NCBI GenBank assembly: GCA_020160935.1
Contig: JAIUPL010000021.1
Location: forward strand, 45,917 to 109,916
Length of the DNA stretch: 64,000 nucleotides
Direction of reading: 5' to 3'
DNA from: Bacteroidota bacterium
GTDB taxonomy: Bacteria; Bacteroidota; Bacteroidia; Chitinophagales; Saprospiraceae
Positions within the stretch are counted from its first letter, which is position 1. Every line of letters begins with the position of its first letter. Shown piece after piece: positions 3,592-63,874 of the stretch. The translations under genes and the position numbers were made by a program. The notes below the pieces were generated by a model. It worked only from the letters and a program-made list of their open reading frames with translations, made no database searches and had not been told where the DNA came from.

Positions 3592-3728
3592 GAGTTATGA
3601 GTTGTGGAGTTATGAGTTATGAGTATACTCACATTGCTTTCGGCCACTCTATCGTAAAAGCAATGAGTAGTGTGAGTATAACTCATAACTCATAACTCCA
3701 CAACTCATAACTCCACAACTCATAACTC
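3592..3728. repeat. intergenic heptad-word hairpin, class A copy 1 (GAGTTAT)
   Basis: The left arm is tandem GAGTTAT words starting two bases after the valS stop. The right arm is the same words on the other strand (ACTCATA repeats, about 3681-3728). The inner stem is TATACTCACA (3624-3633) with TGTGAGTATA (3671-3680), plus ATTGCTTT/AAAGCAAT. The apex sequence recurs at 29.65 kb and 63.8 kb. No T-tract follows. Confidence 0.9.
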
Positions 3729-3781
3729 ACACCTGATAACTTTTTCCCTTTCTCCCTGTTTAGTGTCAAAACACTCAAACA

Positions 3782-4549
3782 ATGGCGATCACAATCTTAC
3801 CAAAAGAAAAACAGGGATATGGTGCGTTCAATGGCGGCGAAATAGTTGAAAACAAACCTATTGGTTTTCCCAGCGACCACTCTACCCTTCGCCCCTACTC
3901 CAACCTGTTTTATTGGGCTCATGCACGTGCTGTTGTAGACAGCACCATTGGCCTGCATCCGCATCAGGGATTTGAGATTTGCTCGTTTGTACTGAAAGGC
4001 AAAATCAGACATTTCGACACCAAACTGAACGAGTGGCGTCCTTTGGAATCTGGAGATGTTCAAATTATTCGCGCTGGCAATGGAATCAGCCACTCGGAAG
4101 CAATGAATAAGGACGCAGAGATATTCCAGATTTGGTTTGACCCGGATCTGACCAAAACCATGAGCCAGCCGGCCTCTTACGATGATTATCGTGCAGTCGA
4201 TTTCCCGGTAGAATCTATGGAAGGCAGCAAAATTACCCGGCTGGCAGGGGCTGGCAGTCCATTTAAAATGGATACTCCAGGCATAGAAATTGAACGGATT
4301 GACTTGAACAATGCCCACCATTCGATTCCAGCGAGCCCGACAAAAACATATTCTATTTACGTGCTGGAAGGGGAGGCAATCCTGAATGGAACACCGGCCC
4401 AAACATCAGATTTTGCACTCGTCAATGACGAACAAGTTCTTGAAATACAAGCCGATACATCTGCATCTTTGTTTCTGATTTCGTCTCCCAAACACCCGGG
4501 TTACCGGACTTATGCAGAATTGATGAAAGCGCGCATCGGCCAGCATTGA
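3782..4549 (+). CDS. pirin family protein
   Basis: A 255-residue cupin-fold protein of the pirin family. The four conserved metal ligands of pirins are visible: His59 and His61 (GLHPHQGFE), His103 and Glu105 (SHSEA). The RIRHFDT-like stretch of the first cupin barrel and a second, more diverged cupin half are present. Bacterial pirins are reported as quercetin dioxygenase-like or redox/regulatory proteins, and the role here cannot be inferred. It is monocistronic between the class A hairpin and the next gene. Confidence 0.9.
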   Translation: MAITILPKEKQGYGAFNGGEIVENKPIGFPSDHSTLRPYSNLFYWAHARAVVDSTIGLHPHQGFEICSFVLKGKIRHFDTKLNEWRPLESGDVQIIRAGNGISHSEAMNKDAEIFQIWFDPDLTKTMSQPASYDDYRAVDFPVESMEGSKITRLAGAGSPFKMDTPGIEIERIDLNNAHHSIPASPTKTYSIYVLEGEAILNGTPAQTSDFALVNDEQVLEIQADTSASLFLISSPKHPGYRTYAELMKARIGQH

Positions 4550-4619
4550 TGATATTTTGCGCGGTGAAATTTCCGATATAAATTGAATTTGAAATCGGGA
4601 ATTTCATCGCAGATGCCCC

Positions 4620-4627
4620 TACTTTTG
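4620..4627 (+). promoter_or_regulatory. -7 box TACTTTTG directly before a start codon
   Basis: TACTTTTG fits TAnnTTTG and ends six bases before the ATG at 4634. Transcription from it would start at or beside the start codon, suggesting a leaderless or near-leaderless message. It argues for 4634 over the upstream in-frame starts 4583 and 4613. No good -33 element is seen. Confidence 0.45.
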
Positions 4628-4633
4628 TGCGCT

Positions 4634-5203: not shown

Positions 5204-5211
5204 AAGGGCAT

Positions 5212-6207: not shown

Positions 6208-6260
6208 TCTCACAAAAAAAGCCAATTTTTGGCACAAATTACGGCATAAATCTTTTCGCT

Positions 6261-6779: not shown

Positions 6780-6873
6780 AATTTGTAAAAAAATACCCGG
6801 TACTGTCTCATTTCAGAATTGTCGATGGTTATAGAAGTGTACTTGAACATTCTGTAACCAAACAAGCAACAAC

Positions 6874-7215: not shown

Positions 7216-7221
7216 CAATCA

Positions 7222-7249
7222 GAGAGAAGGCTTTCCACACCCTTCTCTC
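7222..7249 (+). terminator. 9-bp hairpin after the YCII gene
   Basis: GAGAGAAGG (7222-7230) pairs with CCTTCTCTC (7241-7249) six bases past the YCII stop. There is no T-run, so it is at most a weak terminator or processing hairpin. The right half merges into a TTCTCAC tandem-word tract. Confidence 0.4.
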
Positions 7250-7274
7250 GCTTCTCACCTCTCACTTCTCACCA
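7243..7274. repeat. one-armed heptad-word tract (TTCTCAC) before the sigma factor
   Basis: Words of 7 bp (TTCTCAC, CTCTCAC) run directly into the coding frame of the sigma factor. The same CT-rich words precede the Rieske oxygenase gene at 60.9 kb. There is no matching second arm. Confidence 0.65.
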
Positions 7275-8510: not shown

Positions 8511-8512
8511 TT

Positions 8513-12296: not shown

Positions 12297-12498
12297 ACAC
12301 GGATTGCGCGGAGTTTTTGACGGATTTACACGGATTTGATGGGTAGTAATGAAGCATACCAGATAAATCAATACCATCTATCAAATCGAGCAAATCCTGG
12401 AAACCACCATAAAATCTGAATATATCCGCAGAACAAAATTTCTTCATCACCACCCATCAAATCCGTGTAAATCCGCCAAAACTCCGCGCAATCCGTGT
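12297..12498. repeat. intergenic long inverted repeat (CGGATTT words)
   Basis: The left arm 12297-12344 and right arm 12452-12498 pair over about 47 bp almost perfectly (ACACGGATTGCGCGG against its complement). The word CGGATTT recurs within the arms. The pairing continues more weakly inward (GTAGTAATGAAG with CTTCATCACCAC). It starts one base after the MFS stop and ends about 30 bases before the GMC gene. It shares words with the repeat at 32.4 kb. Confidence 0.9.
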
Positions 12499-14937: not shown

Positions 14938-15221
14938 GCAAGGTATTGTTCTATGTATTATTCGGTTTTGTGGCCATCCTGGGCGTTTATTACGTTGGAA
15001 GCAGCCTTTTCGGCCGTTTTTCCTTGTGGAATGCCCATCCGGTGGTTGCCCGGGTTATACTGCTTCTGGCAGCAGCCCTGGGCGCCCGCGTATTGTACTG
15101 GGCATACCAGATGGGTGAATTGCAAAACCGATGGCTCGCCGGAGCAGGCGCGGTGGTGTTGGCCTTGATTTCTTTCCAGGCTGTGCTGTTGCTGGGCGCG
15201 GTGACGCTGGGGAGGAGATAG
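14934..15221 (+). CDS. small membrane protein of the GMC operon
   Basis: 95 residues with three predicted hydrophobic helices (VLFYVLFGFVAILGVYYVG; VVARVILLLAAALGARVLY; AGAVVLALISFQAVLLLGA). Its ATG overlaps the TGA of the subunit-3 gene (ATGA), indicating translational coupling. It could anchor the dehydrogenase or pass electrons, but no heme or quinone motif is seen. Family not recognised. Confidence 0.7.
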   Translation: MSKVLFYVLFGFVAILGVYYVGSSLFGRFSLWNAHPVVARVILLLAAALGARVLYWAYQMGELQNRWLAGAGAVVLALISFQAVLLLGAVTLGRR

Positions 15222-15263
15222 TCGACAGACGACAGTCAACAGTCGTCAGACGAAAGGTGTCAG
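15222..15263. repeat. short heptad-word tract (CGACAGT/CAACAGT)
   Basis: Words CGACAGA, CGACAGT, CAACAGT, CGTCAGA follow each other with a 7-base period, starting at the stop codon of the membrane protein and ending at the stop of the convergent hydrolase. A weak internal stem GACGAC/GTCGTC exists. The word CAACAGT is also a known heptanucleotide repeat word in filamentous cyanobacteria. Confidence 0.6.
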
Positions 15264-15266
15264 TCG

Positions 15267-16097
15267 TCAGTTGGCCGGGAGGTGTTGTTTCATCCAGTTA
15301 AAGGTGTATTCAAACACTTCAGCCTTTTCATTTTCATTGTGCAACTCATGGTAAAGCCCATCCCATTCCTGGTGTGTCACATCACCTTTTACCCTTTCGG
15401 CGAATGCCTTTGTGGCAACAGGTGAAATGATTTTGTCGCCCGTGCCATGCAACAACAGCAATGGCATCGGCACTTCCCCTTTGTACGAATCCAGCCAGTC
15501 AGCGGCATCCATCAGCGCGATGCCTGCGGCTGCACTGATTTTATCATGAACCAGGGGATCGTTTTTGTAAGCCTCCACGACTGCTTTGTCTTGAGAAATA
15601 AAATGTGCTGCCAGGTTGGTTGGCAACGTGAGTGTGGGCATAAATTTCCGCATCAGTTTACCTACAAGCACTTTGATAGCGGGCGCTTCAAACGCCAATT
15701 GTATCCAGGGACTGGTAGCAATCAAGCCTTTTAGTTCCGGTTTGCGGCGCAGCGCATAATTCAACACCAGGTTGCCGCCCATGGAATGCCCGTACAGGAA
15801 CAAGGGCGTATCAGGGTATAATTCCGCTGTTTTTTCCAGCAGCAGTCCAATATCGTCCAGAAAAGCATCCAGATCTTTCACATGGCCTCTGGGGCCGCCA
15901 CTACGGCCGTAGCCCTGGTGATCAAAACCAACCACAGCCACCCCATGTGCATTGTACCATTCCGCTACATGCTGATAGCGGCCTATGTGTTCGCCCTGTC
16001 CGTGGGCTAAAGCGATAACGGCAATCGGGTTCGCCACAGGCCAGTGCGCAGCATACAACTCGATTCCCTGACTATTTTTCCAGTTTAATGCGTTCAT
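15267..16097 (-). CDS. alpha/beta hydrolase, monoacylglycerol lipase-like
   Basis: About 276 residues from the ATG at 16097 (MNALNWKNSQGIELY). The oxyanion/HG region is ALAHGQGEH, the GFDHQGYGRSGGPRGH stretch is typical of the lysophospholipase/monoacylglycerol lipase family, and the nucleophile elbow is GHSMGG near residue 108. The catalytic Asp is likely in LLHGTGDKII and His in YHELHNE near the C-terminus. No signal peptide. It follows the OmpA gene with a ~34-base gap on the same strand. Confidence 0.85.
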   Translation of the reverse strand: MNALNWKNSQGIELYAAHWPVANPIAVIALAHGQGEHIGRYQHVAEWYNAHGVAVVGFDHQGYGRSGGPRGHVKDLDAFLDDIGLLLEKTAELYPDTPLFLYGHSMGGNLVLNYALRRKPELKGLIATSPWIQLAFEAPAIKVLVGKLMRKFMPTLTLPTNLAAHFISQDKAVVEAYKNDPLVHDKISAAAGIALMDAADWLDSYKGEVPMPLLLLHGTGDKIISPVATKAFAERVKGDVTHQEWDGLYHELHNENEKAEVFEYTFNWMKQHLPAN

Positions 16098-17756: not shown

Positions 17757-18671
17757 ATGAGAATTGTGTATCTCGGCACACCCGAATTTGCGGTTGCGCC
17801 ACTTCGTGTGTTACTGGAAAACGGATATCAGGTAGTGGGTGTTGTAACCGCGCCCGACAAACCCGGCGGAAGAATGGGTTTGCAGGTATCGGCAGTGAAA
17901 AAATTTGCCCTCGACCACGGGCTCCCTGTTCTTCAACCTGAAAAACTTAAAAATCCTGATTTTTTGGAACAATTACGCGCCTGGAAGGCTGACCTTCAGA
18001 TAGTTGTCGCCTTTCGGATGCTTCCGGAAATTGTATGGAATATGCCACCTATGGGTACCATGAACCTGCATGGCTCCCTTTTGCCCAAGTACCGCGGGGC
18101 AGCGCCCATAAACTGGGCCGTCATCAATGGTGAACAGGAAACGGGTTTAACTACCTTCTTGCTAAAACATGAAATCGATACCGGCGACCTGCTTTTCCAG
18201 GAACGCATAGCAATAGGGGAAAATGAAACCGCTGGCGAATTACACGATCGCATGATGGAAGCCGGCGCTGGTCTTGTATTGAAATCCGTGCAAGCCCTTG
18301 AGAATAAAACAGTTGTACCGTTTCCTCAGGAAGAAACAGAAGCAACACATGCGCCGAAAATCTTTACGGAAACGTGTAAAATCGACTTCCAAAAGCCACT
18401 CCAGACGGTACACAACTTTGTTCGTGGACTAAGCCCCTACCCCGGTGCATGGACCGAACTCGATGGCAAAACCCTGAAAATATTGCGCGCCCAAAAAACA
18501 AATGGCGCCCCTTCTGTACCACCCGGCACTTTTATTTCCGATGGAAAAAACCACTTGCGCGTCAGCACTTCCGACGGCTTTCTCGATATTCTGGAACTCC
18601 AAATGGAGGGAAAACGCCGAATGGGTGTGAAAGAGTTTTTGAACGGGTATCGGTTGGGGGGAGGGATTTAG
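17757..18671 (+). CDS. fmt: methionyl-tRNA formyltransferase
   Basis: 304 residues. It formylates initiator Met-tRNA using 10-formyl-tetrahydrofolate. The N-terminal domain has LGTPEFAV, the signature NLHGSLLPKYRGAAPINWA, and EIDTGDLL; the C-terminal OB-like domain follows (VRGLSPYPGAWTEL). Length is normal. The stop TAG is embedded in the first word of the following tandem-word hairpin. Divergent from the OmpA gene with 59 bases between starts. Confidence 0.96.
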   Translation: MRIVYLGTPEFAVAPLRVLLENGYQVVGVVTAPDKPGGRMGLQVSAVKKFALDHGLPVLQPEKLKNPDFLEQLRAWKADLQIVVAFRMLPEIVWNMPPMGTMNLHGSLLPKYRGAAPINWAVINGEQETGLTTFLLKHEIDTGDLLFQERIAIGENETAGELHDRMMEAGAGLVLKSVQALENKTVVPFPQEETEATHAPKIFTETCKIDFQKPLQTVHNFVRGLSPYPGAWTELDGKTLKILRAQKTNGAPSVPPGTFISDGKNHLRVSTSDGFLDILELQMEGKRRMGVKEFLNGYRLGGGI

Positions 18672-18804
18672 TGTTTTGGTGTTTATGTGTTTTGGTGTTT
18701 TTGTGTTTTGGTGGGCTTCGCTCTTGATATTTGAGAATAGTTCTTTCGAAAAACCAAGAGCGAAGCCCACAAAAACACATAAACACTAAAACACCAAAAC
18801 ACAA
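18667..18804. repeat. intergenic tandem-word hairpin (GTGTTTTG)
   Basis: The left arm is about six copies of GTGTTTTG-like words; the right arm is the complement (CACAAAAACACATAAACAC...). The inner stem GTGGGCTTCGCTCTTG pairs with CAAGAGCGAAGCCCAC. The same inner core recurs at 42.06-42.12 kb. It lies between convergent fmt and the SPOR gene and contains the fmt stop. Confidence 0.9.
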
Positions 18805-18808
18805 ACCA

Positions 18809-26383: not shown

Positions 26384-26749
26384 ATGAGAGGCATTTTCAC
26401 CATCCTGTTACTGATTCTTTCCAACATCTTCATGACCTTCGCCTGGTATGGTCATCTCAAATTCCAGGAATTCAAATTTTTTCAAAAAGCCGGCATTTTC
26501 GGACTTATCATAGCCAGTTGGCTTATTGCATTTCTGGAGTACAGCCTGATGGTGCCTGCCAACCGAATGGGATACAAGGAAAACGGCGGCCCTTTTACCC
26601 TTATCCAACTCAAAGTGATTCAGGAAGTAATCACCCTGCTTGTCTTTACCGCATTTACCTTGATATTTTTCAAAAACGAATCGTTCAAATGGAATCATTT
26701 CGTCGGATTCGGGCTGCTGGTGCTTGCGGTGTATTTTATTCGGAAGTGA
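26384..26749 (+). CDS. DUF486 / DMT-like small membrane protein
   Basis: 121 residues, four hydrophobic helices (IFTILLLILSNIFMTFAWYG; IFGLIIASWLIAFLEYSLM; VITLLVFTAFTLIFF; FVGFGLLVLAVYFI). VPANRMGY and the EMR-like length match the DUF486 family, related to small drug/metabolite transporters; substrate unknown. The stop TGA lies within the first word of the following GTGAGTG tandem tract. Confidence 0.88.
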   Translation: MRGIFTILLLILSNIFMTFAWYGHLKFQEFKFFQKAGIFGLIIASWLIAFLEYSLMVPANRMGYKENGGPFTLIQLKVIQEVITLLVFTAFTLIFFKNESFKWNHFVGFGLLVLAVYFIRK

Positions 26750-26853
26750 GTGGTGAGTGGTGAGTGGTGAGTGGTGAGTGGTGAGTGGTGAGTAGTGAGT
26801 GGCACATATAGCCCTGAAAGGGCGTATCCAATAGCACAGGGCAACGCCCTGTG
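26746..26853. repeat. GTGAGTG heptad tract joined to two small GC palindromes
   Basis: Seven to eight GTGAGTG words (26746-26802) begin at the DUF486 stop codon. They are followed by GCCCTGAAAGGGC (26811-26823) and CACAGGGC/GCCCTGTG (26835-26853). There is no complementary word arm, so it is one-sided. The palindromes resemble dispersed GCCCTG-type repeats of other bacteria. Confidence 0.8.
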
Positions 26854-26878
26854 GGGGTGTGGGCACATGAATAGGCAT

Positions 26879-28767: not shown

Positions 28768-29625
28768 ATGAATTTCTGGCAAAAACCCGTCGAAACGCTG
28801 CTCGAATTGTTGCAGCGAAAAGCCCCGCATCTACGCCAGGTGCGGCATTTCCCGTCGCAACACCTGCATCGGGAAGTGGATTTCGACGTGTATCTGCCGC
28901 CCGATTACCACCGTTTTCCGGAGCGAAGGTATCCGCTGGTCGTATTCAACGACGGCCAGGATCTGCCTGTTATGCATTTTTCCAGCATCCTCGAGCGACT
29001 TTATTACCAACAGGAAATACCCCATTTTATTGCTGTTGGCGTATATGCTTCCAGCGAACGAATCCACGAATACGGTACCGCCCGGCAGGTAGACTACAAA
29101 CAACGCGGTGAAAAAGCGCCTCAATATACTTCCTTCATTATCAACGAATTACTCCCTGCCATAGAGCGTCGTTTCCGGCTGTTGGAAGGCGCGGAACATC
29201 GAGCGATCGCCGGTTTTTCACTGGGCGGTCTTTCTGCCATCGACATTGCCTGGGCGCACCCCCACCTGTTTGGTACAGCAGGTGTGTTTTCCGGTGCATT
29301 GTGGTGGCGTTGGTCGCCGGTGCATCCTGAAAACCCGGACGCCGATCGCATCATGCACGATATTATTCGCCAGAGCACGCACTGGCATCAGGGACAACGA
29401 TTCTGGTTTCAATGCGGCACCCTCGACGAGGAAGACGACCGCAATGGCAACGGCGTCATCGACTCTATCGACGACACGCTCGATCTGATACGGGAACTAC
29501 GCATGAAAGGCTGCCCTGAACGCGATGTGTATTACCATGAAATGGAAGGCGGGCGGCATGAACCATTCACCTGGGGAGAGGCGATGCCGGTGTTTTTGAA
29601 ATGGAGCCTCTTTAGGGAGTTATGA
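28768..29625 (+). CDS. putative esterase (esterase D / enterochelin esterase-like)
   Basis: 285 residues, alpha/beta hydrolase fold. VVFNDGQDLP near the oxyanion region and the nucleophile elbow GFSLGGLSA near residue 150 are seen, and the catalytic His is probably in MEGGRHEPFTW. A DRNGNGVIDSIDDT segment near residue 225 looks like a calcium-binding loop and is unusual for the family. It starts two bases after cmk. The last residues Glu-Leu and the stop TGA are encoded by the first GAGTTATGA word of the adjoining hairpin repeat. Confidence 0.85.
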   Translation: MNFWQKPVETLLELLQRKAPHLRQVRHFPSQHLHREVDFDVYLPPDYHRFPERRYPLVVFNDGQDLPVMHFSSILERLYYQQEIPHFIAVGVYASSERIHEYGTARQVDYKQRGEKAPQYTSFIINELLPAIERRFRLLEGAEHRAIAGFSLGGLSAIDIAWAHPHLFGTAGVFSGALWWRWSPVHPENPDADRIMHDIIRQSTHWHQGQRFWFQCGTLDEEDDRNGNGVIDSIDDTLDLIRELRMKGCPERDVYYHEMEGGRHEPFTWGEAMPVFLKWSLFREL

Positions 29626-29727
29626 GTTATGAGTGATGAGTTATGAGTTTTACTCACGTTGCTATTGGCTTCTTCAAAAGTGTGCCAATAGCAACGTGAG
29701 TAAAACTCATAACTCATAACTCATAAC
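29617..29727. repeat. intergenic heptad-word hairpin, class A copy 2 (GAGTTAT)
   Basis: GAGTTAT words form both arms. The apex stem is TTTTACTCACGTTGCTATTG with its complement near 29690-29705. Both convergent genes end inside it: the esterase in the left arm and the molybdoenzyme in the right arm, each reading GAG TTA TGA (Glu-Leu-stop). The apex is homologous to the copies at 3.6 and 63.8 kb but is in the opposite orientation to the 3.6-kb copy. Confidence 0.92.
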
Positions 29728-32029
29728 TTTTTAAGATTTTGATAATTACCATCTTCGATGTCGGCGTATTGCTTTTATCGGCAATGCTATCGATGGGCAC
29801 CAGCACATTGGTTTCAGGGAAATAAGTAGCCGTACAGCGCTCGGGGATATCATAGGCAACGACGATAAATTTACGGGCAACACGTTCCACGCCGCCGCTG
29901 TAATTGAATAAATCTACCACATCCCCATCTTTCAAACCGGCTTTTCCTATGTCATATGGATTCATCAAAATCACGCGTCGTTCGTGAAAAATGCCGCGAT
30001 AACGATCATCCAACCCATAAATCGTGGTATTGAACTGGTCGTGGCTACGAATGGTCATCATAATATACTCGCCGTCGGCAAGTTGTAATTTGGGCACCTC
30101 CGCCAGGTTGAAATGCGCTTTTCCGGAAAGGGTATTGAATTTCCCTACCCGCGCGCCATTGGGCAGGTAAAAACCGCCCGGTTCGCGCACCCTGCCGTTG
30201 TAATCATCAAAGCCTGGAATAGCGCGTTCAATATCTGCACGGATATGATCGTAATGTTGTTCGTATTGATCCCAATTGATACCGGAATCGGCTCCCAGTA
30301 CGGCTTTAGCCAATTGGCACACAATGGCTGGTTCGGAAAGCAATTGACTGGAAACAGGCCTCAGGTTGCCTTTCGAACTGTGCACGACGCCCATCGAATT
30401 TTCCACTGAAACAAATTGCTGCGTTCCACCGGTCATATCGCGGTCTGTACGGCCCAGACAGGGCAGGATGATAGCCTCCTTGCCATGTACGAGGTGGCTG
30501 CGATTGAGTTTGGTTGATACATGCACCGTCAGGTCGCAACGACGCAGGGCTTTCGCCGTATATTCTGTATCTGGCGTGGCCGAGAGGAAATTGCCGCCCA
30601 TGGCAAAAAACACCCTTACTTTTCCTTCATGCATAGCCTGTATACATTCTACAACGTCATAACCGGGTTCTTGGGGCGGACGGAAGCCGAAGGTACTTTC
30701 CAGTCGATCCAGAAATGCCTGCGGCGGTCGTTCATAAATACCCATCGTACGGTCGCCCTGTACATTGCTATGTCCACGCACCGGGCAGGTGCCTGCGCCG
30801 GGCTTGCCGATGCTGCCTTTGAGCAAGAGCAGGTTAACAATTTCCTTGATCGTATCTACCGCATTTTTGTGCTGTGTAAGGCCCATGGCCCAGCAGGCAA
30901 TGATCTTTTTGTGTCCAATCAACAGTTCGGCTGCCGCTCTGATTTGCGGTAAGGGTACGCCACATTCTACCGCCAGGTCTTCCAGGTTGTACTGGCGAAG
31001 ATTTTGCAGGTATTCTTCCATGCCAGTTGTGTGTTCGCTCATAAATGTATGATCGAACACGGCGCCGGGGTTCCGTTCTTCGGCTTCCAGCATCAGAAGG
31101 CCCAGTGCCTTGAGCAGGGCCATATCGCCGTTTATCTTTACCTGAAGGAATACATCGGTGAGTTCTGTAGCAATGCCCAACAGTCCTTTTACCTGTTGCG
31201 GGTGGCTGAAGCCCAAAAGACCCGTTTCGCGCAAAGGGTTTACCGAAATAATTTTCGCGCCTTTTTCCTTTGCTTTTTGCAGGGCAGTGAGCATACGCGG
31301 GTGATTCGTACCCGGATTTTGCCCCAGGATGACGATCACTTCTGCTTCGTAGAAGTCTTCCAGCGTAACAGAACCCTTGCCGATGCCCAGCGATTCATTC
31401 AGCGCTACTCCACTCGATTCGTGGCACATATTGCTGCAATCCGGCAGGTTGTTGGTGCCGAATTTTCTGACAAACAATTGATACAAAAACGCAGCTTCAT
31501 TGCTGGTACGCCCAGAGGTGTAAAATGCGGCCTCGTCGGGCGATTTCAAACCGTTCAGGTGTTCTGCAATTTTGGCAAAGGCGGTTTCCCAGGAAATAGG
31601 CTGGTAATGGGTGGCTCCTGCCGGAAGGTACACGGGCTCCGCTACCCTGCCCTTTTTGCCGATTTCAAAATCAGTCAGCGCAGAAAGATCGAAAACCGAA
31701 TTTGCAGCAAAAAATGCAGCATCCAGTTTGCGCGTGGTGGCTTCTTCGGCGATTGCTTTTGCGCCGTTTTCGCAGTATTCTGCTATGCCCGAGCGTTCGT
31801 CGTCGGGATCGGGCCAGGCACAACCGGGACAATCATATCCCTTCATCTGGTTCAGTTCTGCGAGGGCTTTCAATCCCCGTGGCACATCCATAGCCTCAAA
31901 AACATGCTCCAGGGCGCTTACAACGGCAGGCAACCCGCCCGCTTTTTTAGCAGGTTTGCTGCGCCGCATACCGGTCAACGTTTCCGGATTTTCAGCAAGC
32001 GGTTGTGGTGGTTCCGTCTCTTTTTTCAT
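29714..32029 (-). CDS. FdhF/YdeP-type molybdopterin oxidoreductase
   Basis: About 771 residues from ATG 32029 (32065 and 31969 are alternative starts). It belongs to the FdhA-alpha-like/YdeP group of molybdopterin enzymes. It has GYDCPGCAWPDP instead of a full four-cysteine Fe-S motif, CHESSGVALNESLG in the cofactor region, GQNPGTNHPRM, RGHSNVQGDRTMGIYERPP and a C-terminal molybdopterin dinucleotide-binding domain. E. coli YdeP is linked to acid resistance; formate oxidation is not assured. The C-terminal Ser-Tyr-Glu-Leu and stop come from the hairpin arm. Partner FdhD is upstream on the same strand. Confidence 0.9.
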   Translation of the reverse strand: MKKETEPPQPLAENPETLTGMRRSKPAKKAGGLPAVVSALEHVFEAMDVPRGLKALAELNQMKGYDCPGCAWPDPDDERSGIAEYCENGAKAIAEEATTRKLDAAFFAANSVFDLSALTDFEIGKKGRVAEPVYLPAGATHYQPISWETAFAKIAEHLNGLKSPDEAAFYTSGRTSNEAAFLYQLFVRKFGTNNLPDCSNMCHESSGVALNESLGIGKGSVTLEDFYEAEVIVILGQNPGTNHPRMLTALQKAKEKGAKIISVNPLRETGLLGFSHPQQVKGLLGIATELTDVFLQVKINGDMALLKALGLLMLEAEERNPGAVFDHTFMSEHTTGMEEYLQNLRQYNLEDLAVECGVPLPQIRAAAELLIGHKKIIACWAMGLTQHKNAVDTIKEIVNLLLLKGSIGKPGAGTCPVRGHSNVQGDRTMGIYERPPQAFLDRLESTFGFRPPQEPGYDVVECIQAMHEGKVRVFFAMGGNFLSATPDTEYTAKALRRCDLTVHVSTKLNRSHLVHGKEAIILPCLGRTDRDMTGGTQQFVSVENSMGVVHSSKGNLRPVSSQLLSEPAIVCQLAKAVLGADSGINWDQYEQHYDHIRADIERAIPGFDDYNGRVREPGGFYLPNGARVGKFNTLSGKAHFNLAEVPKLQLADGEYIMMTIRSHDQFNTTIYGLDDRYRGIFHERRVILMNPYDIGKAGLKDGDVVDLFNYSGGVERVARKFIVVAYDIPERCTATYFPETNVLVPIDSIADKSNTPTSKMVIIKILKSYEL

Positions 32030-32408: not shown

Positions 32409-32575
32409 ACACGGATTACACGGATTGAAACACTGAAACGCGGATTACACGGATTGAAACACGGATTACACGGATTGGATGTTGAAAAAGGAACAATCTT
32501 TACTTCACCTCTATCCAATCCGTGTAATCCGTGTTTCAATCCGTGTAATCCGCGTTTCAGTGTTTCAGTCCGTGT
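32409..32575. repeat. intergenic tandem-word hairpin (ACACGGATT words)
   Basis: The left arm 32409-32480 and right arm 32512-32575 are built from ACACGGATT and GAAACACGGATT words and pair nearly perfectly. The right arm lacks one 9-base unit present in the left. The fdhD stop codon (32565-32567) and its last two or three residues are in the right arm. Words are shared with the repeat at 12.3 kb. Confidence 0.93.
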
Positions 32576-35580: not shown

Positions 35581-35757
35581 GGATTTTGGGGGGGATCGGC
35601 TTGCGCCGACCCGGGGTTGGGGATTTTGCGGATTTTGCGGATTACTGTTGATCTTCTATAATAAGAAATAAATGATCAAAAATGGCCTTTAGGCCATAAA
35701 AATCAAAAATAATCCGCAAAATCCCCAACCCCGGGTCGGCGTAAGCCGATCCCCCCT
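35581..35757. repeat. GC-rich intergenic long hairpin with GGATTTTGC words
   Basis: The arms, about 46 bp each (near 35589-35640 and 35710-35757), pair almost perfectly: GGGGGGATCGGCTTGCGCC and its complement, then GGATTTTGC repeated. A small GGCCTTTAGGCC palindrome lies in the centre. It separates the Ppx-like gene from pyrC, both on the minus strand. Confidence 0.92.
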
Positions 35758-36776: not shown

Positions 36777-36809
36777 AGTGAGTGGTGAGTATTGAGTGGT
36801 GAGTATTTG
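36777..36809. repeat. one-armed GTGAGTG tract directly before a start codon
   Basis: Words GTGAGTG, GTGAGTA and TTGAGTG (7-base period) lie immediately upstream of the ATG at 36776. Read in the gene's sense the tract is CACTCAC-type, as at 54.4 kb. Confidence 0.75.
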
Positions 36810-36938
36810 GGTGGCCGTGTTTCTGCATCAATAAGGAATTATTGACAAACATGCCTCCGCAAAAGTAGGTTGCGTGCGTAAACGGTGCAAGGGAAAGGCG
36901 TATTGTGGTGAATAAAATGAGGACGGCACGATGACGTA

Positions 36939-36960
36939 GAGACAAGGCATGCCTTGTCTC
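36939..36960. repeat. GAGACAAGGCATGCC palindrome, copy 1
   Basis: A perfect 22-base palindrome centred on GCATGC. It recurs at 36989 and 37496. Similar palindromes with GTAGAGAC ends and a GCATGC centre are dispersed in other bacteria, notably cyanobacteria. Confidence 0.9.
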
Positions 36961-36988
36961 AGCACACAGATGAACACACAAAATTTAT

Positions 36989-37016
36989 GTAGAGACAAGG
37001 CATGCCTTGTCTCTAC
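36989..37016. repeat. GTAGAGACAAGGCATG palindrome, copy 2
   Basis: A perfect 28-base palindrome, the same core as copy 1, extended by GTA/TAC at the ends. It lies just left of the 21-bp tandem array. Confidence 0.92.
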
Positions 37017-37041
37017 GTGGAACAACCCCGGTTCGGCAACG

Positions 37042-38980: not shown

Positions 38981-39149
38981 ACACCTACTTAGTTATTGGT
39001 TATTAGGGGTTGACAAGGGTTTATTTTCACAAGTTCATGGCAGCACAACCAGTGAAGCCAAAAAAATCTGAAAATAAACCCTTACCAACCCCTAATAACC
39101 AATAACTAATAACCAATAACCTAACTGACAACCGATAACTAAAAATCTG

Positions 39150-39219: not shown

Positions 39220-40425
39220 ATGACTGCCACGCACACCCAGCTCTCCGAGCGCGTACAGAAACTTGCAGAGTCTGAAACCCTCAAAATGGCCCGTATGGCC
39301 CGCGAATTGCGCGCCCTTGGCCACGACGTGATCAGCCTGAGCCTTGGCGAACCTGATTTTGATACGCCCGACCACATTAAAGAGGCCGCTTATCAGGCTC
39401 TGAAAGATGGTTATACCAAATATACACCCGTTGCAGGCTTGCCAGAACTGACCAAGGCCATTTGCGAAAAACTCAAACGCGACAACAATCTCGATTTCCG
39501 CCCCGAACAGATTGTGGTGAGCAATGGCGCCAAGCAAACTGTGTACAACCTTTGCCAGGCCCTGCTCGATCCGGGCGACGAGGTAGTGATTTTTGCTCCG
39601 TACTGGGTTTCTTACTGGGAAATTGTAAAAATGGCGGAAGGCGTGCCCGTACCGGTATATGCCGGTGTGGAAACCGACTTCAAACCCACGCCACAACAAG
39701 TGGCCGACGCTATTACCGAACGTACCAAGTTTGTACTGTTCTCTTCACCTTGCAACCCGACAGGTACGGTATTCTCCCGCGAGGAACTGAAAGCGTACGC
39801 CGATGCGATTGCACCGCATGAGCACGTGCTGATCGTCAGCGATGAAATTTACGAATACATCAATTTCACGCACGAACACGTGAGCATCGGCTCTTTCCCC
39901 AACGTGAAAGACCGCACCATTACCATCAACGGCTTTGCTAAAGGTTTTTCCATGACCGGCTGGCGCCTCGGCTATATGGCCGGCCCAAAATACGTGGCTG
40001 ATGCCTGCTCAAAAATCCAGGGTCAGGTGACCAGCGGCGCTTCTTCTTTTGGCCAGAAAGCCGGCGCCGTAGCGCTCATGAGCGATATGGCCCCGACCGA
40101 CCACATGCGCGAGGCTTTCCGCGAACGCCGCGACATCGTGCTGTCATTGCTGGAAGAAATTCCAGGCATCCGCACCAACCACCCTGAAGGCGCTTTTTAT
40201 GTATTCCCGGATGTAAGCGCTTATTTCGGCAAATCGGATGGCCAGGTAACCATCAAAAATGCCGATGATTTTTGCGACTACGTGATGAGCAATGCCTATG
40301 TAGGACTGGTTTCCGGCGCTGCTTTTGGCGATCCGAACTGTTTCCGCCTGAGTTATGCCGCCTCGGAAGCGCAATTGCGCGAGGCTGTACGGAGAATGAA
40401 AGATGTACTGGGGAGACTGAAATAG
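39220..40425 (+). CDS. aspC: aspartate aminotransferase (class I, PLP)
   Basis: 401 residues, subgroup Ib-like. PLP-dependent transamination between aspartate and 2-oxoglutarate is the likely reaction. SLSLGEPDFDTPDHIKEAA, the cofactor-binding SSPCNPTG, SDEIYEYI, and the Schiff-base lysine in NGFAKGFSMTGWRLGYMAG (Ala-Lys rather than the commoner Ser-Lys) are present, as is the C-terminal FRLSYA arginine. The gene symbol is by family; substrate preference was not tested. The stop is directly followed by a heptad-word hairpin. Confidence 0.9.
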   Translation: MTATHTQLSERVQKLAESETLKMARMARELRALGHDVISLSLGEPDFDTPDHIKEAAYQALKDGYTKYTPVAGLPELTKAICEKLKRDNNLDFRPEQIVVSNGAKQTVYNLCQALLDPGDEVVIFAPYWVSYWEIVKMAEGVPVPVYAGVETDFKPTPQQVADAITERTKFVLFSSPCNPTGTVFSREELKAYADAIAPHEHVLIVSDEIYEYINFTHEHVSIGSFPNVKDRTITINGFAKGFSMTGWRLGYMAGPKYVADACSKIQGQVTSGASSFGQKAGAVALMSDMAPTDHMREAFRERRDIVLSLLEEIPGIRTNHPEGAFYVFPDVSAYFGKSDGQVTIKNADDFCDYVMSNAYVGLVSGAAFGDPNCFRLSYAASEAQLREAVRRMKDVLGRLK

Positions 40426-40559
40426 TCCTGAGTCGTAAGTCCTGAGTCCTGAGTCCGTAGAGTACACCTACTTGCTCTTGGTATTTTAATAGATGAATGC
40501 CAAGAGTAAGTAGGTGTACTCTACGGACTCAGGACTCAGGACTTACGACTCAGGACTCA
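40426..40559. repeat. intergenic heptad-word hairpin, class B copy 1 (TCCTGAG)
   Basis: TCCTGAG words form the left arm immediately after the aminotransferase stop; CTCAGGA words form the right arm. The inner stem GTAGAGTACACCTACTT pairs with AAGTAGGTGTACTCTAC, and the apex adds CTCTTGG/CCAAGAG. The inner GTAGAGTACACC also occurs in the copies at 53.3 and 54.0 kb. Confidence 0.93.
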
Positions 40560-41901: not shown

Positions 41902-42150
41902 GTTTTTTGTGTTTTTGTGTTTTAGTGTTTTTGTGTTTTAGTGTTTTTGAGGGGCCATTTGTATAAAATTTCGGCATTTCGCTTTTGCAGCCGGGATTTT
42001 GTACAAATGGCCCCTTTTTTTATGGGTGTTTTTGTGTTTTAGTGTTTTAGTGTTTTGGTGGGCTTCGCTCTTGAAATTTCAGAATAATTTTTCCGAAAAG
42101 CCTAGAGCGAAGCCAACAAAAACACCAAAACACTAAAACACAAAAACACT
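41902..42150. repeat. composite tandem-word hairpin (GTGTTTTA) enclosing a terminator
   Basis: GTGTTTTA/GTGTTTTT words lead from the helicase stop. A perfect terminator hairpin follows (41951-42021). Then come a second run of GTGTTTTA words, the GTGGGCTTCGCTCTTG core with its imperfect complement, and a right arm of CACTAAAA words to 42150. The core matches the repeat at 18.7 kb. Confidence 0.88.
41951..42021 (+). terminator. intrinsic terminator of the helicase gene
   Basis: GGGGCCATTTGTA (41951-41963) pairs perfectly with TACAAATGGCCCC (42002-42014), followed by seven T's. The 38-base loop holds a small CGGC/GCCG stem. It lies inside the tandem-word repeat. Confidence 0.88.
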
Positions 42151-42297
42151 AATTTTAACAAAATTTTAAACCCCTGCCTTTTAAACGCCCGGCACTACCA
42201 GCGGTCTATGCTTTCGTTTCCCGGCCGGAAACAGGATCATTCACCCAAACACATATTCAATCATCCCTTGAGCAATCAAGATCAAATACATTCCGAC

Positions 42298-43096: not shown

Positions 43097-43237
43097 GTTA
43101 TCAGTTATTGACTATTAGTTATTAGGGGTGGTAGGGGACCATCTGTACATATCATTGGCTACACAAAAAGGAATGCCAATCATATCTTCAGATGGTCCCC
43201 TACCACCCCTAATAACTAATAACCAATAACTGATAAC
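43097..43237. repeat. intergenic heptad-word hairpin (TTATTAG), second copy
   Basis: The left arm starts one base after the lipoprotein stop. Words like TTATTAG are followed by GGGGTGGTAGGGGACCATCT, which pairs with AGATGGTCCCCTACCACCCC on the right. The apex stem ATATCATTGGC/GCCAATCATAT has one mismatch. It shares words with the IS-split repeat at 37.9-39.1 kb. Confidence 0.93.
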
Positions 43238-43489
43238 CAAACAGATAACCAATTCATGGTATTTTTCCCTCACATGAAGCGTATTTTCATTTATGGCATG
43301 AAAATCGCAATTTGGAGGTCGGTTGTTTAATCCATGAACCCGACCTTCAGCATTCCTGCACTTCGCCGGCTATTCTGCGCGGCTGTTTTCCTGTTTGCTG
43401 AATTTATTTATTTCCCTTGCAAAATGTTCTCCGGCGCATGCCATAGGTATGCCCGGCAGATATAAAGATGTAATCGGTTTTTGGGATGT

Positions 43490-50845: not shown

Positions 50846-51598
50846 ATGGCTACCAGACAACTCATAAAACTGTCGGAAATTTCTACTGAAGCACCCAAAG
50901 GACTCAAGAAAAAAGATGTAGCAGAAGAAACGGAGCGCCTCGTAAAACGTTTCGGCGAATTACACCACTTGTTGTATGCGGAAGGCAAACACTCCGTGTT
51001 GGTCATTTTTCAGGGCATGGACGCGAGTGGCAAGGACGGCGCTGTAAGACGGGTATTTCGCGACTGTACCATAGCAGGTCTCGACCTGGTGTCGTACAAA
51101 AAACCTACCGAAATTGAAATGGCGCACGATTTCCTGTGGCGGGTACACCGCTGGGCGCCCGAGAAAGGTATGCTGACCATTTTCAACCGCAGCCATTATG
51201 AAGATATTCTGATCCAGCGCGTACACAAATGGATCGACATGACCCGTGTAAAAAAACGCATGGCTGCCATCAATGCCTTTGAAGAACTGCTGGAGTTTGA
51301 TAACAACACCTTGATTTTCAAATTCTACATGCACGTTTCAAAGGAAGAACAGGCCGTTCAGTTGCAGGAGCGCCTCGACGATCCAAACAAATACTGGAAG
51401 CACAATCCGGGCGACTGGGAAGAACGCAAACTTTGGGACCAATACATGGAGGCCTATGAATACGCCATCAATGAAAGCAGCGTTCCCTGGCATATTTGCC
51501 CGGTAGATAACCGTTGGTACCGCGACTATTTTATCCTGAAAATACTAGTTGACGGGCTGGAGAAATTGAACATGAATATGCCGCAGCCAGGGAAGTAA
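50846..51598 (+). CDS. polyphosphate kinase 2 family protein
   Basis: 250 residues. It probably transfers phosphate between polyphosphate and nucleotides. Walker A FQGMDASGKDGAVRR at about 55-69, the lid/Walker B region IFNRSHYEDILIQRVH near residue 113, and the late PVDNRWYRDYFI near residue 222 are typical of PPK2. The subclass (AMP, ADP or nucleotide-general) cannot be fixed by eye. The stop precedes the GGCAAAA word hairpin by two bases. Confidence 0.92.
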   Translation: MATRQLIKLSEISTEAPKGLKKKDVAEETERLVKRFGELHHLLYAEGKHSVLVIFQGMDASGKDGAVRRVFRDCTIAGLDLVSYKKPTEIEMAHDFLWRVHRWAPEKGMLTIFNRSHYEDILIQRVHKWIDMTRVKKRMAAINAFEELLEFDNNTLIFKFYMHVSKEEQAVQLQERLDDPNKYWKHNPGDWEERKLWDQYMEAYEYAINESSVPWHICPVDNRWYRDYFILKILVDGLEKLNMNMPQPGK

Positions 51599-51600
51599 GC

Positions 51601-51830
51601 GAAGGGCAAGGGGCAAAAGGCAAAGGGCAAGAGGCAAGAGACAAGAGACAAAAGGCAAAAGGCAAGAGACAAAAGGCAAAAGGCAAAAAATTACAATTTT
51701 TCTCTTGCCTTTTGTCTTTTGCCCTTTGCCTCTTGCCCTTTGCCTTTTGCCCCTTGCCTTTTGCCCCTTGCCCTTTGCCTCTTGCCCCTTGCCCTTTGCC
51801 TCTTGCCCCTTGCCTTTTGCCCTTTGCCTC
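51601..51830. repeat. large heptad-word hairpin (GGCAAAA/GGCAAGA)
   Basis: The left arm is about 12 words of 7 bases (GGCAAAA, GGCAAAG, GGCAAGA, GACAAGA). The right arm is longer, with about 18 complementary words (TTTTGCC, CTTGCC). Pyrimidine/purine strand asymmetry is complete. It fills the gap between the convergent PPK2 gene and the outer membrane protein gene to the base. Confidence 0.93.
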
Positions 51831-52631
51831 TTACTTCTTATTCCCTCCGCCCGGGTTAGGGTAAAAGTGCGCTTCTTCGCGTGCCCTTCCAAACAATCTG
51901 AAACGGAAATAGGCTTGAATGCCTGCATTGGTCATTCTGGACTGGCGCTGGATGCGGTCGGTCAGATCGAGTTCGCCGTACACTTCCAGGCCAGTAGTCA
52001 TGTTGCCACCTTCGCCAAGTTCCTTGCCAACGCCAGCGCGCAGGGTAAACAGATTTCCTTTTTGTGAGCCAAGCGGCTCGCGGGCGCCGAAATACTGCTG
52101 CAAGTGGTATCGCTGCGATTTGTCGCCGATGCTGTTGACGATGGTTTTATCGCCAAAACCCTTGTCGAACACGTATTTGTAGCCCCCTACGAAGGTAAGG
52201 AACATGCCAATGTTATCTCCGATTTCAAAGTCCTTGCCCAGACCCAGCGTACCACTGTAAGCCATTCTCTCATAGCCGGACGGCGAACTCATGGCATCCA
52301 GAATCAGGAATGCGGGCCATTTATCGTAGGAAATATGCATGGAAAAGCCAAAGCGCGGTTGCAGGTAACTAGAGCGCAATTTATTGTCGTCGGCATATTT
52401 TTCCCAGGTATAATCGTAATCGATGCCTTCGTCGCGAAATGCTTCTTCCACGTATTCTTCCACACGTTTAAAATCGGCGTTGAGCACGGTGCTTTGAAAA
52501 TCAGTGTCGTGGTACAGCCGGGAAGCGCCCACGTTAAGGCCGAGTTTGATGTTCAGCCGGGCAGGAAGTTGAGCCGAAAGAATGGAAATGGAACAAATGA
52601 AGAGCGTCCAAACAGTAAATAATCTGCGCAT
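51831..52631 (-). CDS. outer membrane beta-barrel protein, hypothetical
   Basis: 266 residues from ATG 52631. A signal peptide (LFTVWTLFICSISILSAQ) is followed by alternating beta-strand patterns (LNIKLGLNVGASRLYHD; FGFSMHISYDKW; GMFLTFVGGYKYVFDKGF; LFTLRAGVGKELGEGG; GIQAYFRFRLFG) as in PorT/OmpW-like barrels. Gly/Asn/Lys tail. Function unknown. The stop codon is at the very edge of the heptad-word hairpin. Confidence 0.72.
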   Translation of the reverse strand: MRRLFTVWTLFICSISILSAQLPARLNIKLGLNVGASRLYHDTDFQSTVLNADFKRVEEYVEEAFRDEGIDYDYTWEKYADDNKLRSSYLQPRFGFSMHISYDKWPAFLILDAMSSPSGYERMAYSGTLGLGKDFEIGDNIGMFLTFVGGYKYVFDKGFGDKTIVNSIGDKSQRYHLQQYFGAREPLGSQKGNLFTLRAGVGKELGEGGNMTTGLEVYGELDLTDRIQRQSRMTNAGIQAYFRFRLFGRAREEAHFYPNPGGGNKK

Positions 52632-52886: not shown

Positions 52887-53294
52887 ATGAAAAACGCTGT
52901 TCCCAGCCTTTTGGCCCTCCTGCTCATTTCCGCTGTTTCATTCGTTTCCTGCAAGAAAGACGATTCTTTGCAAGACCGCCTGGTCGGCAACTGGCACTCG
53001 AGCCAGGTGAAATCTGGAGGGACTGACTACTCCGCCATCGTTGTATTTAATCTCGATTTACAATCCAGCCAGGAATTTGATCTCGACGTTATCACTACCC
53101 TGCCCTTCACAGGCTCCAGCACCCAATCGTACAATGGCGACTGGAAAGAGGACGAAGCCAAACAGGATTTGATCCTGACATTCAACAACACCAGCAGCAC
53201 ATATGAAATTGTAGAACTGAGCGGCAATGTCATGAAAGCCGAAACAGTATATGAAGGCACCCGTTATGAGGTGACCTTTGAGAGAGTACAATAG
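52887..53294 (+). CDS. small lipoprotein, lipocalin-like
   Basis: 135 residues from ATG 52887. The lipoprotein signal ends SAVSFVSC. The mature domain begins LQDRLVGNWHSSQV, the GxW start typical of lipocalin-like Bacteroidota lipoproteins, with strands SQEFDLDVIT, SYNGDWKEDE and LILTFNN. Ligand unknown. The stop is immediately followed by a TCCTGAG-word hairpin. Confidence 0.7.
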   Translation: MKNAVPSLLALLLISAVSFVSCKKDDSLQDRLVGNWHSSQVKSGGTDYSAIVVFNLDLQSSQEFDLDVITTLPFTGSSTQSYNGDWKEDEAKQDLILTFNNTSSTYEIVELSGNVMKAETVYEGTRYEVTFERVQ

Positions 53295-53421
53295 TCCTGA
53301 GTCCTGAGCCCTGAGTCCTAAGTCTGTAGAGTACACCTTAATACCCTTGGTATCCACAATTAGAAAAGCCACAATTATGAAGGTGTACTCTACCGACTCA
53401 GGACTAAGGACTCAGGACTCA
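53295..53421. repeat. intergenic heptad-word hairpin, class B copy 2 (TCCTGAG)
   Basis: TCCTGAG words start at the base after the stop. Inner GTAGAGTACACC pairs with GGTGTACTCTAC. The apex arms do not match each other well, but they do match the opposite arms of the copy at 53934-54068, showing the two are inverted copies on either side of the S4 gene. Confidence 0.92.
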
Positions 53422-54383: not shown

Positions 54384-54421
54384 CGAGTGAGTGGTGAGTG
54401 GTGAGTGGTGAGTGGTGAGTG
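54384..54421. repeat. one-armed GTGAGTG tract before the SCP2 start codon
   Basis: Five GTGAGTG words of 7 bases, ending two bases from the ATG at 54383, lie inside the predicted 5' leader. In the gene's sense it reads CACTCAC. Confidence 0.8.
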
Positions 54422-56744: not shown

Positions 56745-56745
56745 T

Positions 56746-59740: not shown

Positions 59741-59745
59741 GACGG

Positions 59746-59753: not shown

Positions 59754-59808
59754 TGTCGTTTCAAATTTGCTACTAGGCGTTTGGCAAAAAAAAGCACCCG
59801 GTAATTGA

Positions 59809-60894: not shown

Positions 60895-60896
60895 GG

Positions 60897-60940
60897 ATAG
60901 AGGATAGAAGCGAGAGGTGAGAGGTGAGAGGTGAGAGGTG
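60897..60940. repeat. one-armed GAGAGGT heptad tract before the Rieske gene start
   Basis: Four GAGAGGT words of 7 bases, degenerating to GATAGAG and GATAGAA next to the ATG at 60894. Sense strand is CTCTCACC-type, the same as before the sigma factor at 7.25 kb. Confidence 0.8.
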
Positions 60941-60948
60941 TGCGTATT

Positions 60949-62658: not shown

Positions 62659-62754
62659 GTCCAATGAATGTAGAAAAGGTAAAACTTTAGGGCTTTTAAC
62701 GATGCAAACCTATGAAGTTCAGCCTACATTTAAGGCCTAAAAATTAGAATACCT

Positions 62755-63756
62755 ATGCAACAAAATGCCCCTTTTCAAAACAACATGCTGGAACCCAGTA
62801 TGTCTTACGAAGATATGCTCAACGCACTGGAAGCGCAGGCGTTGGGACTGGAGTCAACTTCGGAGGAAGACCTGGCCAATCAATTTCTGGTGTTTCAACT
62901 CAATAATACCGATACGGGTGGAACGGTGCTGGAGACTTCTCTGGTCGACCCTGCCCTCAACGGCAGCGAAGAAGCCCCGGATATTCAGATGACTGTGGAA
63001 ATGATCGCTTTTCACGTCGGCGAAAACGAAGGTATTCCTGAAAATACCCGTGCCACGATGCGCCTGGTGATCGGCAAGGATGAAAATTCGCGCGATAAGT
63101 ACTTCGATGCCGCTTTCTGGACTGTTGCCGCCGGACTTCAGTTGTACAACGACGCCAAAGGCAAACCGGCTGAAAGCAAGGAACTCAAGGCCGATTTCAC
63201 CAAAGCATTCGGCAAACGTCCGATAGAAATTCCGGGTGGACTGGCGCGTATGACTTTTGAAGTAGTGAAACACAAGGAGCCGCAGTGGTGGCAGCGTGTT
63301 TTTGGTTTCATACAGTCGGATACCGGGCGTGCCCTCACCTCGGTGATCGGATTTCCAGCGATCGGCCATACAGCCATCGGCATGATCGATGAAGTGCTGA
63401 ACAAACTGGATGCCGATACAACTGGCGTATTGTTCAAAAGCCGCGCGCTCACGCTCGCCCTGTCCAAGCAGGCTAAAACTGACTTCTCCGGCGGCAATCC
63501 GCGTATCAAAGTAGGCTGCCTGAGCCCGGGCTTCTGTGTCATCGCCCGCGGCCGCGATTATCCGGTCATTGCCAATGCAGATGCGTTTTTTTACACCGCC
63601 TACGGCAAATTAGTGCCCTCTTCGGTAACAGAGGAACAACTGGTGACAGGTAACTACCAGGATCCTTTTAAAAATTGCACGTATGGTATTTTCAAGATTG
63701 GAATGCGTGAAGCGGCGCTGAATCCGAATTTCAATTACGGGAAAACGGGGGTTTGA
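62755..63756 (+). CDS. hypothetical protein, 333 residues
   Basis: A cytosolic-looking protein without signal or membrane spans, apart from an uncertain hydrophobic patch ALTSVIGFPAIGHTAIGMIDEVLNKL. An N-terminal segment rich in Met/Glu/Ala (SYEDMLNALEAQALGLE) precedes a beta-rich part (IQMTVEMIAFHVGENE; ATMRLVIGKDENSRDKYFDAAFWTVAAGLQLYNDA). The C-terminal part contains KVGCLSPGFCVIARGRDYPVIANADAFFY. No family recognised. Codon use matches neighbours. Followed within a few bases by a class A hairpin. Confidence 0.75.
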   Translation: MQQNAPFQNNMLEPSMSYEDMLNALEAQALGLESTSEEDLANQFLVFQLNNTDTGGTVLETSLVDPALNGSEEAPDIQMTVEMIAFHVGENEGIPENTRATMRLVIGKDENSRDKYFDAAFWTVAAGLQLYNDAKGKPAESKELKADFTKAFGKRPIEIPGGLARMTFEVVKHKEPQWWQRVFGFIQSDTGRALTSVIGFPAIGHTAIGMIDEVLNKLDADTTGVLFKSRALTLALSKQAKTDFSGGNPRIKVGCLSPGFCVIARGRDYPVIANADAFFYTAYGKLVPSSVTEEQLVTGNYQDPFKNCTYGIFKIGMREAALNPNFNYGKTGV

Positions 63757-63759
63757 GGG

Positions 63760-63874
63760 ATGAGTTATGAGTTATGAGTGATGAGTGATGAGTTATACTC
63801 ACTTTGCTTTCGATTTTTTCAATAGTGTGGCCGAAAGCAACGTGAGTATAACTCATAACTCATAACTTATAACT
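63760..63874. repeat. intergenic heptad-word hairpin, class A copy 3 (GAGTTAT)
   Basis: GAGTTAT/GAGTGAT words form the left arm and ACTCATA words the right arm. The apex stem TATACTCAC...GTGAGTATA encloses TTTGCTTTCG and CGAAAGCAA. The apex matches the 3.6-kb copy in reverse orientation. It starts four bases after the stop of the 333-residue gene. Confidence 0.92.

Follow-up and report, generated by a model that had tools for sequence, protein, structure and literature searches.

Introduction

Heptamer repeats are known from cyanobacteria as STRR, and comparable repeats build the arms of hairpins at gene ends in a 64,000-nucleotide stretch of a Bacteroidota genome, the window of this study (contig C41, positions 45,917 to 109,916, of genome G000, an assembly of 5.84 Mb in 51 contigs). 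According to PMC4692102, the GGGAATC heptamers of Xanthomonas and the GGGGA(C/T)T heptamers of Nostoc are mostly intergenic, near or overlapping stop codons, with 7-9% between divergent genes; inverted pairs number 70 and 75 in two Xanthomonas species and are few in Nostoc, and the G-rich strand is the coding strand 3' of a stop and the non-coding strand before a start, that is, directed outward. The repeats studied here share period 7, intergenic and stop-proximal location, inverted pairing and the outward G-rich strand, and their excess of 7-nt units and outward polarity place them among intergenic heptamer repeats of the LSSR/STRR kind. They differ from those of Xanthomonas and Nostoc, where the same paper describes one G-quadruplex word type per genome studied, in their many words, their core stems, the change of family at orthologous junctions and the joint evolution of arms; GGG runs are absent (by eye) from the main words GAGTTAT, AGTCCTG, GTTATTG and GTGAGTG, which thus fall outside the Xanthomonas G4 type.

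Other described systems resemble the hairpins in single traits. Repetitive extragenic palindromes (REPs) and REPINs are likewise dispersed palindromes in families, and PMC3733652 and PMC3116915 give REPs a length of 20-40 bp, a GTAG or CGTC end and reported insertions of elements into or next to one another; the present hairpins, unlike these elements without word arms, have arms that can reach 87 nt, and in families A-D they open with word units (by eye). The TAACTGA repeats of five Bacteroidetes correspond, after rotation and reverse complementation, to the family D unit CAGTTAT, but according to PMC4679880 they are direct, mostly upstream of start codons in the main genome and inverted in one case, whereas our hairpins are inverted and mostly behind stops. 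Inverted copies of DNA-uptake words also form hairpins from a short genomic word, suggested as terminators, with closely spaced copies of one word of known uptake role and without families of tandem words (PMC2267715). Finally, template switching in RNA genes (rRNA histories) leaves multi-base paired changes, loop inversion and an excess of G and T on the 5' side, the direction derived for intrastrand switching (PMC8794818); the hairpins described here show paired changes and, in most families, the G and T excess, and loops lying inverted at some junctions may match as well, in dispersed intergenic repeats with tandem-word arms. Among the listed matches in the open-licence literature, no paper on word-armed hairpins in Bacteroidota was found.

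Results

Word-armed hairpins form dispersed families, mostly behind stop codons

The hairpins belong to dispersed families located mostly behind stop codons, the family can differ at orthologous junctions, the two arms change jointly without a G-U bias, the cores of family A are species-specific and some loops are inverted. Counts were taken from a 510-kb sample of G000 picked blind to hairpins (the whole of C41, C25:1-220000 and C14:1-180000), from about 180 kb of a syntenic relative, G043, at ~85% nucleotide identity, and from shorter pieces of 35 further genomes of the genus and one member of the order; every comparison uses draft assemblies, where repeats may be collapsed. Genes were called with our own codon-usage script without annotation, hairpins were defined by our cut-off of at least 24 nt per arm, and families were assigned by regular-expression sorting. 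One window protein has its closest named relatives in Saprospiraceae metagenome assemblies (86% identity), and searches of the window gave no Rfam match at gathering thresholds and no tRNA.

The first-pass annotation, which described hairpins at 14 junctions of the window, was borne out in that an inverted repeat is present at all 14, the one at 41.9 kb resolving into an array at 41,904 and, after it, a hairpin that starts at 42,026. The two counts it had proposed as decisive were made on the 510-kb sample in place of the whole genome, and both came out in its favour. Inverted arms clearly exceed chance, with 73 hairpins against 0 in two Markov shuffles, and 297 intergenic stretches of the sample (79,303 nt) hold 45 lag-7 self-match runs (≥11) against a mean of 0.0 in five shuffles. 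In the same spectrum lag 8 gave 21 runs (0.2 in shuffles), lags 14 and 21 gave 56 and 46, and lags 2-6 and 9-13 at most 3 each. Neighbouring heptamer arrays with related words and a spacing below 200 bp are inverted in 38 and direct in 2 of 40 pairs (P = 1.5e-9), and 79 of the 116 period-7 arrays of G000 and G043 overlap a hairpin.

The initial description of the arms as tandem word runs applies to their outer part; the inner part is, in most families, a family-specific core stem and loop (for example ACTCACNTTGCTATTGGC, CCGTAGAGTACACC and GGGCTTCGCTCTTG). Most families have a period of 7 or 8, and the sites at 12.3, 32.4 and 35.6 kb belong to a 9-bp or irregular family. The claim that the words are unrelated held for ten hand-picked family words, which are no closer to one another than letter-shuffled ones (minimum spanning tree 17 vs 19.4, P = 0.13); a set of 22 variants had given a shorter network than chance (28 vs 37), but same-family variants were mixed in, and relatedness of the words was dropped once one word per family gave a non-significant result. 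Period-7/8 arrays built from different words also occur elsewhere in the genus; period, as had been proposed, and polarity are common while words differ. None of our tests explains the value of period 7.

At least 11 families were distinguished, with the following numbers in the G000 sample: A (words GAGTTAT, core ACTCACNTTGCTATTGGC, n = 9), B (AGTCCTG, core CCGTAGAGTACACC, n = 8), C (8-bp GTGTTTTG, core GGGCTTCGCTCTTG, n = 6), D (GTTATTG/GTTATCA, core GGTAAGGG, n = 7), E (ACACGGATT, n = 7), F (CCCGCAGAACTCGCAGATTT with GTAGAGTACAC stems, n = 7), G (CTTTGTG, in some copies with GTACACTCTACG outside, n = 8), H (10-bp GGGTTGATGA, n = 3), I (GATTTACGATT, n = 3), and J (GTGAGTA, n = 3) and K (GGCAAAA, n = 1), in which words run almost throughout; 11 of the 73 hairpins stayed unsorted. 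The module GTAGAGTACAC or a close form occurs in five family B, six family F and one family G hairpins of G000. An odd unit pair, TGAGTCG TAAGTCC, sits three or four units before the core of family B in both genomes, in both arms of 6 and in one arm of one more of the nine hairpins with a recognised core (of 12), which suggests that families likely spread as whole cassettes. The proposal that the repeats do not descend from one sequence therefore fails within families, whose members are dispersed copies. The word arms give the element no fixed boundary, and the predicted RNA folding energy of the hairpins has a median of -85.5 kcal/mol.

Two readings of the words were set aside. Words designed as all-frame stops had too weak a signal (30% of 186 arms vs 16% in shuffles and 22% in the same arms read backwards; a stop on some strand in 29 of 43 distinct words vs 26.3 expected), and a common AGT skeleton (17 of 43 words vs 11.1, P = 0.02, uncorrected) was not used.

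Placement was scored for 100 hairpins of G000 and G043 free of N and with two flanking genes: 35 lie in convergent, 58 in codirectional and 7 in divergent gaps, and none sits well inside a called gene. Among codirectional hairpins 50 of 58 are closer to the stop than to the next start; of the 93 in non-divergent gaps, 64 lie within 15 nt of a stop codon, compared with 44 expected under even placement in their own gap, and 24 overlap it. When gaps of at least 60 nt are considered, a hairpin is present in 34/49 convergent, 29/115 ++, 27/97 -- and 6/84 divergent gaps. Plain terminators are rarer at convergent gene ends with a hairpin (1/68) than at those without (6/36, P = 0.007).

Most hairpins are kept at orthologous junctions while arms and family A cores change

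Across 76 orthologous gaps a hairpin was detected in 22 in G000, in 19 in G043 and in 18 in both, versus 5.5 expected under independence, and at 5 junctions, one of them of non-word type, in one genome alone. The family is the same at 15 of the 18 shared junctions and changed at three (G000/G043: A/D at 3.6 kb, A/B at 29.6 kb and B/K at 53.3 kb of the window). At 3.6 kb one family D unit is left outside the family A hairpin (by eye), suggesting that A replaced D. Outside these 18, the junction at 25.7 kb has a plain terminator in G000 and family F words in G043. Behind fmt (18.7 kb) G000 and G043 have a family C hairpin, G046 a GGCAAGGGGCAA hairpin, G016 yet another hairpin, G020 two arrays, G023 a CACATAG hairpin and G006 no hairpin.

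Two further observations come from other genomes. The G046 orthologue of the 12.3-kb site (L157) has a hairpin of ACACATAGG words nested inside family E ACACGGATT arms, possibly an intermediate of family replacement. In G049 (L142, ~1650-1711) an ATGTCCA period-7 array lies seemingly within the fmt reading-frame region.

At the 15 same-family junctions 655 stem pairs were compared, setting aside 56 gapped pairs and 39 unpaired in G000. While 520 were unchanged, 43 showed double Watson-Crick changes vs 4.4 expected under independence, 12 single changes to G-U, 71 pair-breaking single changes and 9 other changes; two poorly aligning junctions kept in the totals (C41:87817 and C14:118398) contribute 45 of the 71. 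Preservation of RNA pairing would be expected to bias mismatches on the transcribed strand towards G-U, and in codirectional gaps there is no such preference (48 G-U vs 54 A-C, P = 0.62), so the joint change has no RNA signature.

The 5' arms have a G+T fraction of 0.63, compared with 0.50 for 21 other hairpins; by family, they are G+T rich in 8 of 11. Loops, compared at 18 orthologous pairs with C14:118398 excluded from the test, are inverted at 3 and direct at 6 by a margin of at least 10, a cut-off set without a null, with 9 inside smaller margins. In family A, with copies chosen by their words and core tags by regular expression, CTCAC/TTATAC tags mark 25 of 30 G000 copies and 0 of 27 G043 copies, GTGTT tags mark 21 of 27 G043 copies and 0 of 30 G000 copies, and the remaining copies have neither. 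Cores are species-specific at five of six orthologous A-A junctions; at the sixth (L226/L240) the G000 copy has a stray CTCAC tag and both copies share a third core by eye. Since these sites are likely older than the species split, it appears that cores were exchanged while the word arms were kept.

One-armed arrays point away from the nearest gene

Arrays outside hairpins were assigned to a gene when they lay at most 25 nt from it and their distance to the other gene was greater by 21 nt or more; this left aside 23 ambiguous arrays and 9 within genes, as well as arrays with little G/C bias, whose number was not recorded. The G-rich strand is directed away from the near gene in 36 of 37 arrays (16/16 in G000 and G043, 20/21 in other sampled genomes), compared with 20/29 under a looser initial count. 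Start and stop ends agree (15/16 and 21/21), which indicates that polarity follows the gene boundary and not transcription. A CAAACCCT array of nearly 480 bp in G009 (L036:2554-3031) is far longer than those listed for the G000 sample. The sequence AGCCCTGAAAGGGCGTATCCAATAGCACAGGGCAACGCCCTGT behind a GTGAGTG array of the window (26803-26860) recurs at L021:1276-1370, within the hairpin just upstream of one of the two Y1 transposase genes of G000, next to a 12-bp GAATACACATAC array.

The trait is patchy in the genus and tracks Y1 transposases weakly

Across 33 genomes with enough sequence, many of them represented by stretches of merely 10-20 kb and compared by tests that ignore kinship, hairpin density correlates with period-7 density (rho 0.82), with genome size (rho 0.67) and weakly with the number of Y1 transposases (rho 0.41, P = 0.018). 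The trait is patchy within the genus: the word GAGTTAT has 376 matches in G000, 227 in G006 and 179 in G023, while 19 of the 24 relatives within the genus have 0-1; G035, from another family of the order, has 359.

Both G000 Y1 loci, L021 and L022, are adjoined by other hairpins, so that a RAYT flanked by the same palindrome, as in REP/REPIN systems, was not seen for the word hairpins. At L022:1274-2214 a Y1 gene (177-aa frame) has GTAGTTGGCGAGGACGCCAACTAC hairpin copies on both sides, RAYT/REP-like and distinct from the word hairpins. The generating enzyme proposed earlier was not found in a search that covered the Y1 transposase alone.

The features of the window are collected in Table 1. 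A short non-word palindrome, AGAGACAAGGCATGCCTTGTCTC, also occurs at 36934-37018, in a long gap without clear genes.

Table 1. Word-armed hairpins and one-armed arrays of the window (positions counted from its first nucleotide)
Position	Strand	Feature	Context and remarks
3592..3741	.	Family A hairpin, (GAGTTAT)n arms	Directly 3' of stop ending 3590
7245..7273	.	One-armed array of TTCTCAC/CTCTCAC heptamers	
12297..12498	.	Family E hairpin, ACGGATT words	3' of stop ending 12295; detected arms 12315-12481, outer ends by eye
15220..15271	.	One-armed array of AGTCGAC heptamers, weakly conserved (68% matches)	
18667..18805	.	Family C hairpin with 8-bp GTGTTTTG words and a GGGCTTCGCTCTTG core	At stop ending 18671; G043 hairpin also family C, with paired changes
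26746..26802	+	One-armed (GTGAGTG)n array	Overlaps stop codon ending 26749
29617..29728	.	Family A hairpin	Fills convergent gap
32409..32576	.	Family E hairpin, ACACGGATT words	
35589..35756	.	Family E-like hairpin, GGGGGGATCGGC outer stem and TTGCGGATT words	
36778..36807	+	One-armed GTGAGTG array	Touches start side of minus-strand gene
38989..39139	.	Family D hairpin (GTTATTG/GTTATTA)	8 nt 3' of stop ending 38980
40424..40559	.	Family B hairpin (AGTCCTG), core CCGTAGAGTACACC	Arm overlapped by the gene's stop codon
41904..42014	.	Mosaic, D-like core GGGGCCATTTGTA flanked on one side by family C words	Mosaic reading by eye
42026..42152	.	Family C hairpin	
43097..43252	.	Family D hairpin	Loop inverted vs G043
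51590..51839	.	Family K hairpin, (GGCAAAA)n arms reaching nearly to the loop, without core stem	G043 junction: GAGAGGT array and short GGCAAA inverted pair (by eye)
53293..53421	.	Family B hairpin	At stop codon
53933..54069	.	Family B hairpin	Fills convergent gap; paired changes vs G043
54387..54421	+	One-armed GTGAGTG array	Start side of minus-strand gene
60912..60940	+	One-armed GAGAGGT array	Between two minus-strand genes
63754..63874	.	Family A hairpin	At stop ending 63756

Discussion

On balance, we lean towards reading the dispersed cassettes as interchangeable hairpins that end transcripts from both sides and that are kept palindromic and alike by DNA template switching, not by selection for pairing in the RNA. 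As a hairpin is replicated, the nascent strand may copy the opposite arm, which would turn a change in one arm into a matched pair. The words could serve as slippage-prone tracts offering register-free annealing, and we propose that a strand annealing in this way can switch to another cassette and import its core. Switching and copying between sites would account for the joint arm changes and the species-specific cores, and a putative role as transcript-end structures is likely from the position of the hairpins. The suggestion of the first-pass annotation that a replication process sets the period is thus kept in part, as a process acting on hairpins, to which the double changes without G-U bias and the loops inverted at some junctions point.

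Several observations weigh against this reading. An actual switching event was not observed, and both loop orientations occur within one family, so a loop inversion could stem from the import of another copy. The 5' arms of families B (0.52), F (0.48) and K (0.39) are not G+T rich. The species split of cores was scored in family A alone, and in family B the GTAGAGTACAC core is common to both genomes (5/8 and 2/4 hairpins) with no such split. On the side of transcription, codirectional gaps show no clear shortage of plain terminators next to hairpins (3/56 vs 16/182, P = 0.58), and a U-tract is mostly absent (at least 5 T in the next 10 nt at 29/128 ends; T fraction 0.30), so that the hairpins are not textbook intrinsic terminators; as no RNA-level selection is seen, a function would have to be argued from position.

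The alternative that survives best, possible though rather unlikely, holds that the hairpins are non-autonomous mobile elements, MITE- or REPIN-like, placed behind stops by an enzyme encoded elsewhere, with swaps as new insertions next to or into old hairpins. The dispersed families with common words and cores, the nested hairpin of G046 and the five junctions with a detected hairpin in one genome alone, one of them not of the word type, speak for it. However, no mobilising gene was found, Y1 being the sole family searched, and a Y1/RAYT mover was rejected as the leading explanation, since the Y1 genes adjoin other hairpins and their number tracks hairpin density less well than genome size does (rho 0.41 vs 0.67); plain insertion would also leave the paired changes and the species-specific cores at kept sites unexplained.

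A bolder idea, more doubtful still, is that a sequence-blind process marks gene boundaries, laying word arrays in steps of 7-8 nt with the G-rich strand directed away from the gene, folding them by template switching and rewriting them genome-wide, so that place, period and polarity would be inherited and sequence would not.

That these are ordinary transcription-end hairpins under selection for RNA folding, with the joint arm changes as compensatory mutations, seems improbable to us. Their location behind stop codons and between convergent genes and their strong predicted folding would suit it, but the transcribed strand shows no preference for G-U over A-C (48 vs 54), single G-U steps are rarer than double changes (12 vs 43), a U-tract is lacking and the words would be left unexplained.

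Rho prefers C-rich RNA. It is nevertheless very improbable that the word arrays are Rho-loading or R-loop guards of gene boundaries, with the C-rich strand carried by incoming transcripts and hairpins as two guards back to back, because, for all the outward polarity of one-armed arrays at both gene ends and the same rule described for Xanthomonas and Nostoc heptamers (PMC4692102), the C-rich arm would be folded within hairpins and families F and G have no G-rich 5' arms (by eye).

A gene-end hairpin is usually deemed functional because its arms co-change, and here the co-change lacks an RNA signature. With 73 hairpins per 510 kb, a whole genome like this one would contain several hundred natural sites at which the rewriting of hairpins by replication could be measured. 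Their period and outward polarity tie the heptamer repeats of Bacteroidota to those of Xanthomonas and Nostoc, and the keeping of place while sequence changes suggests a way for genomes to renew, in families, the structures at the ends of their genes.

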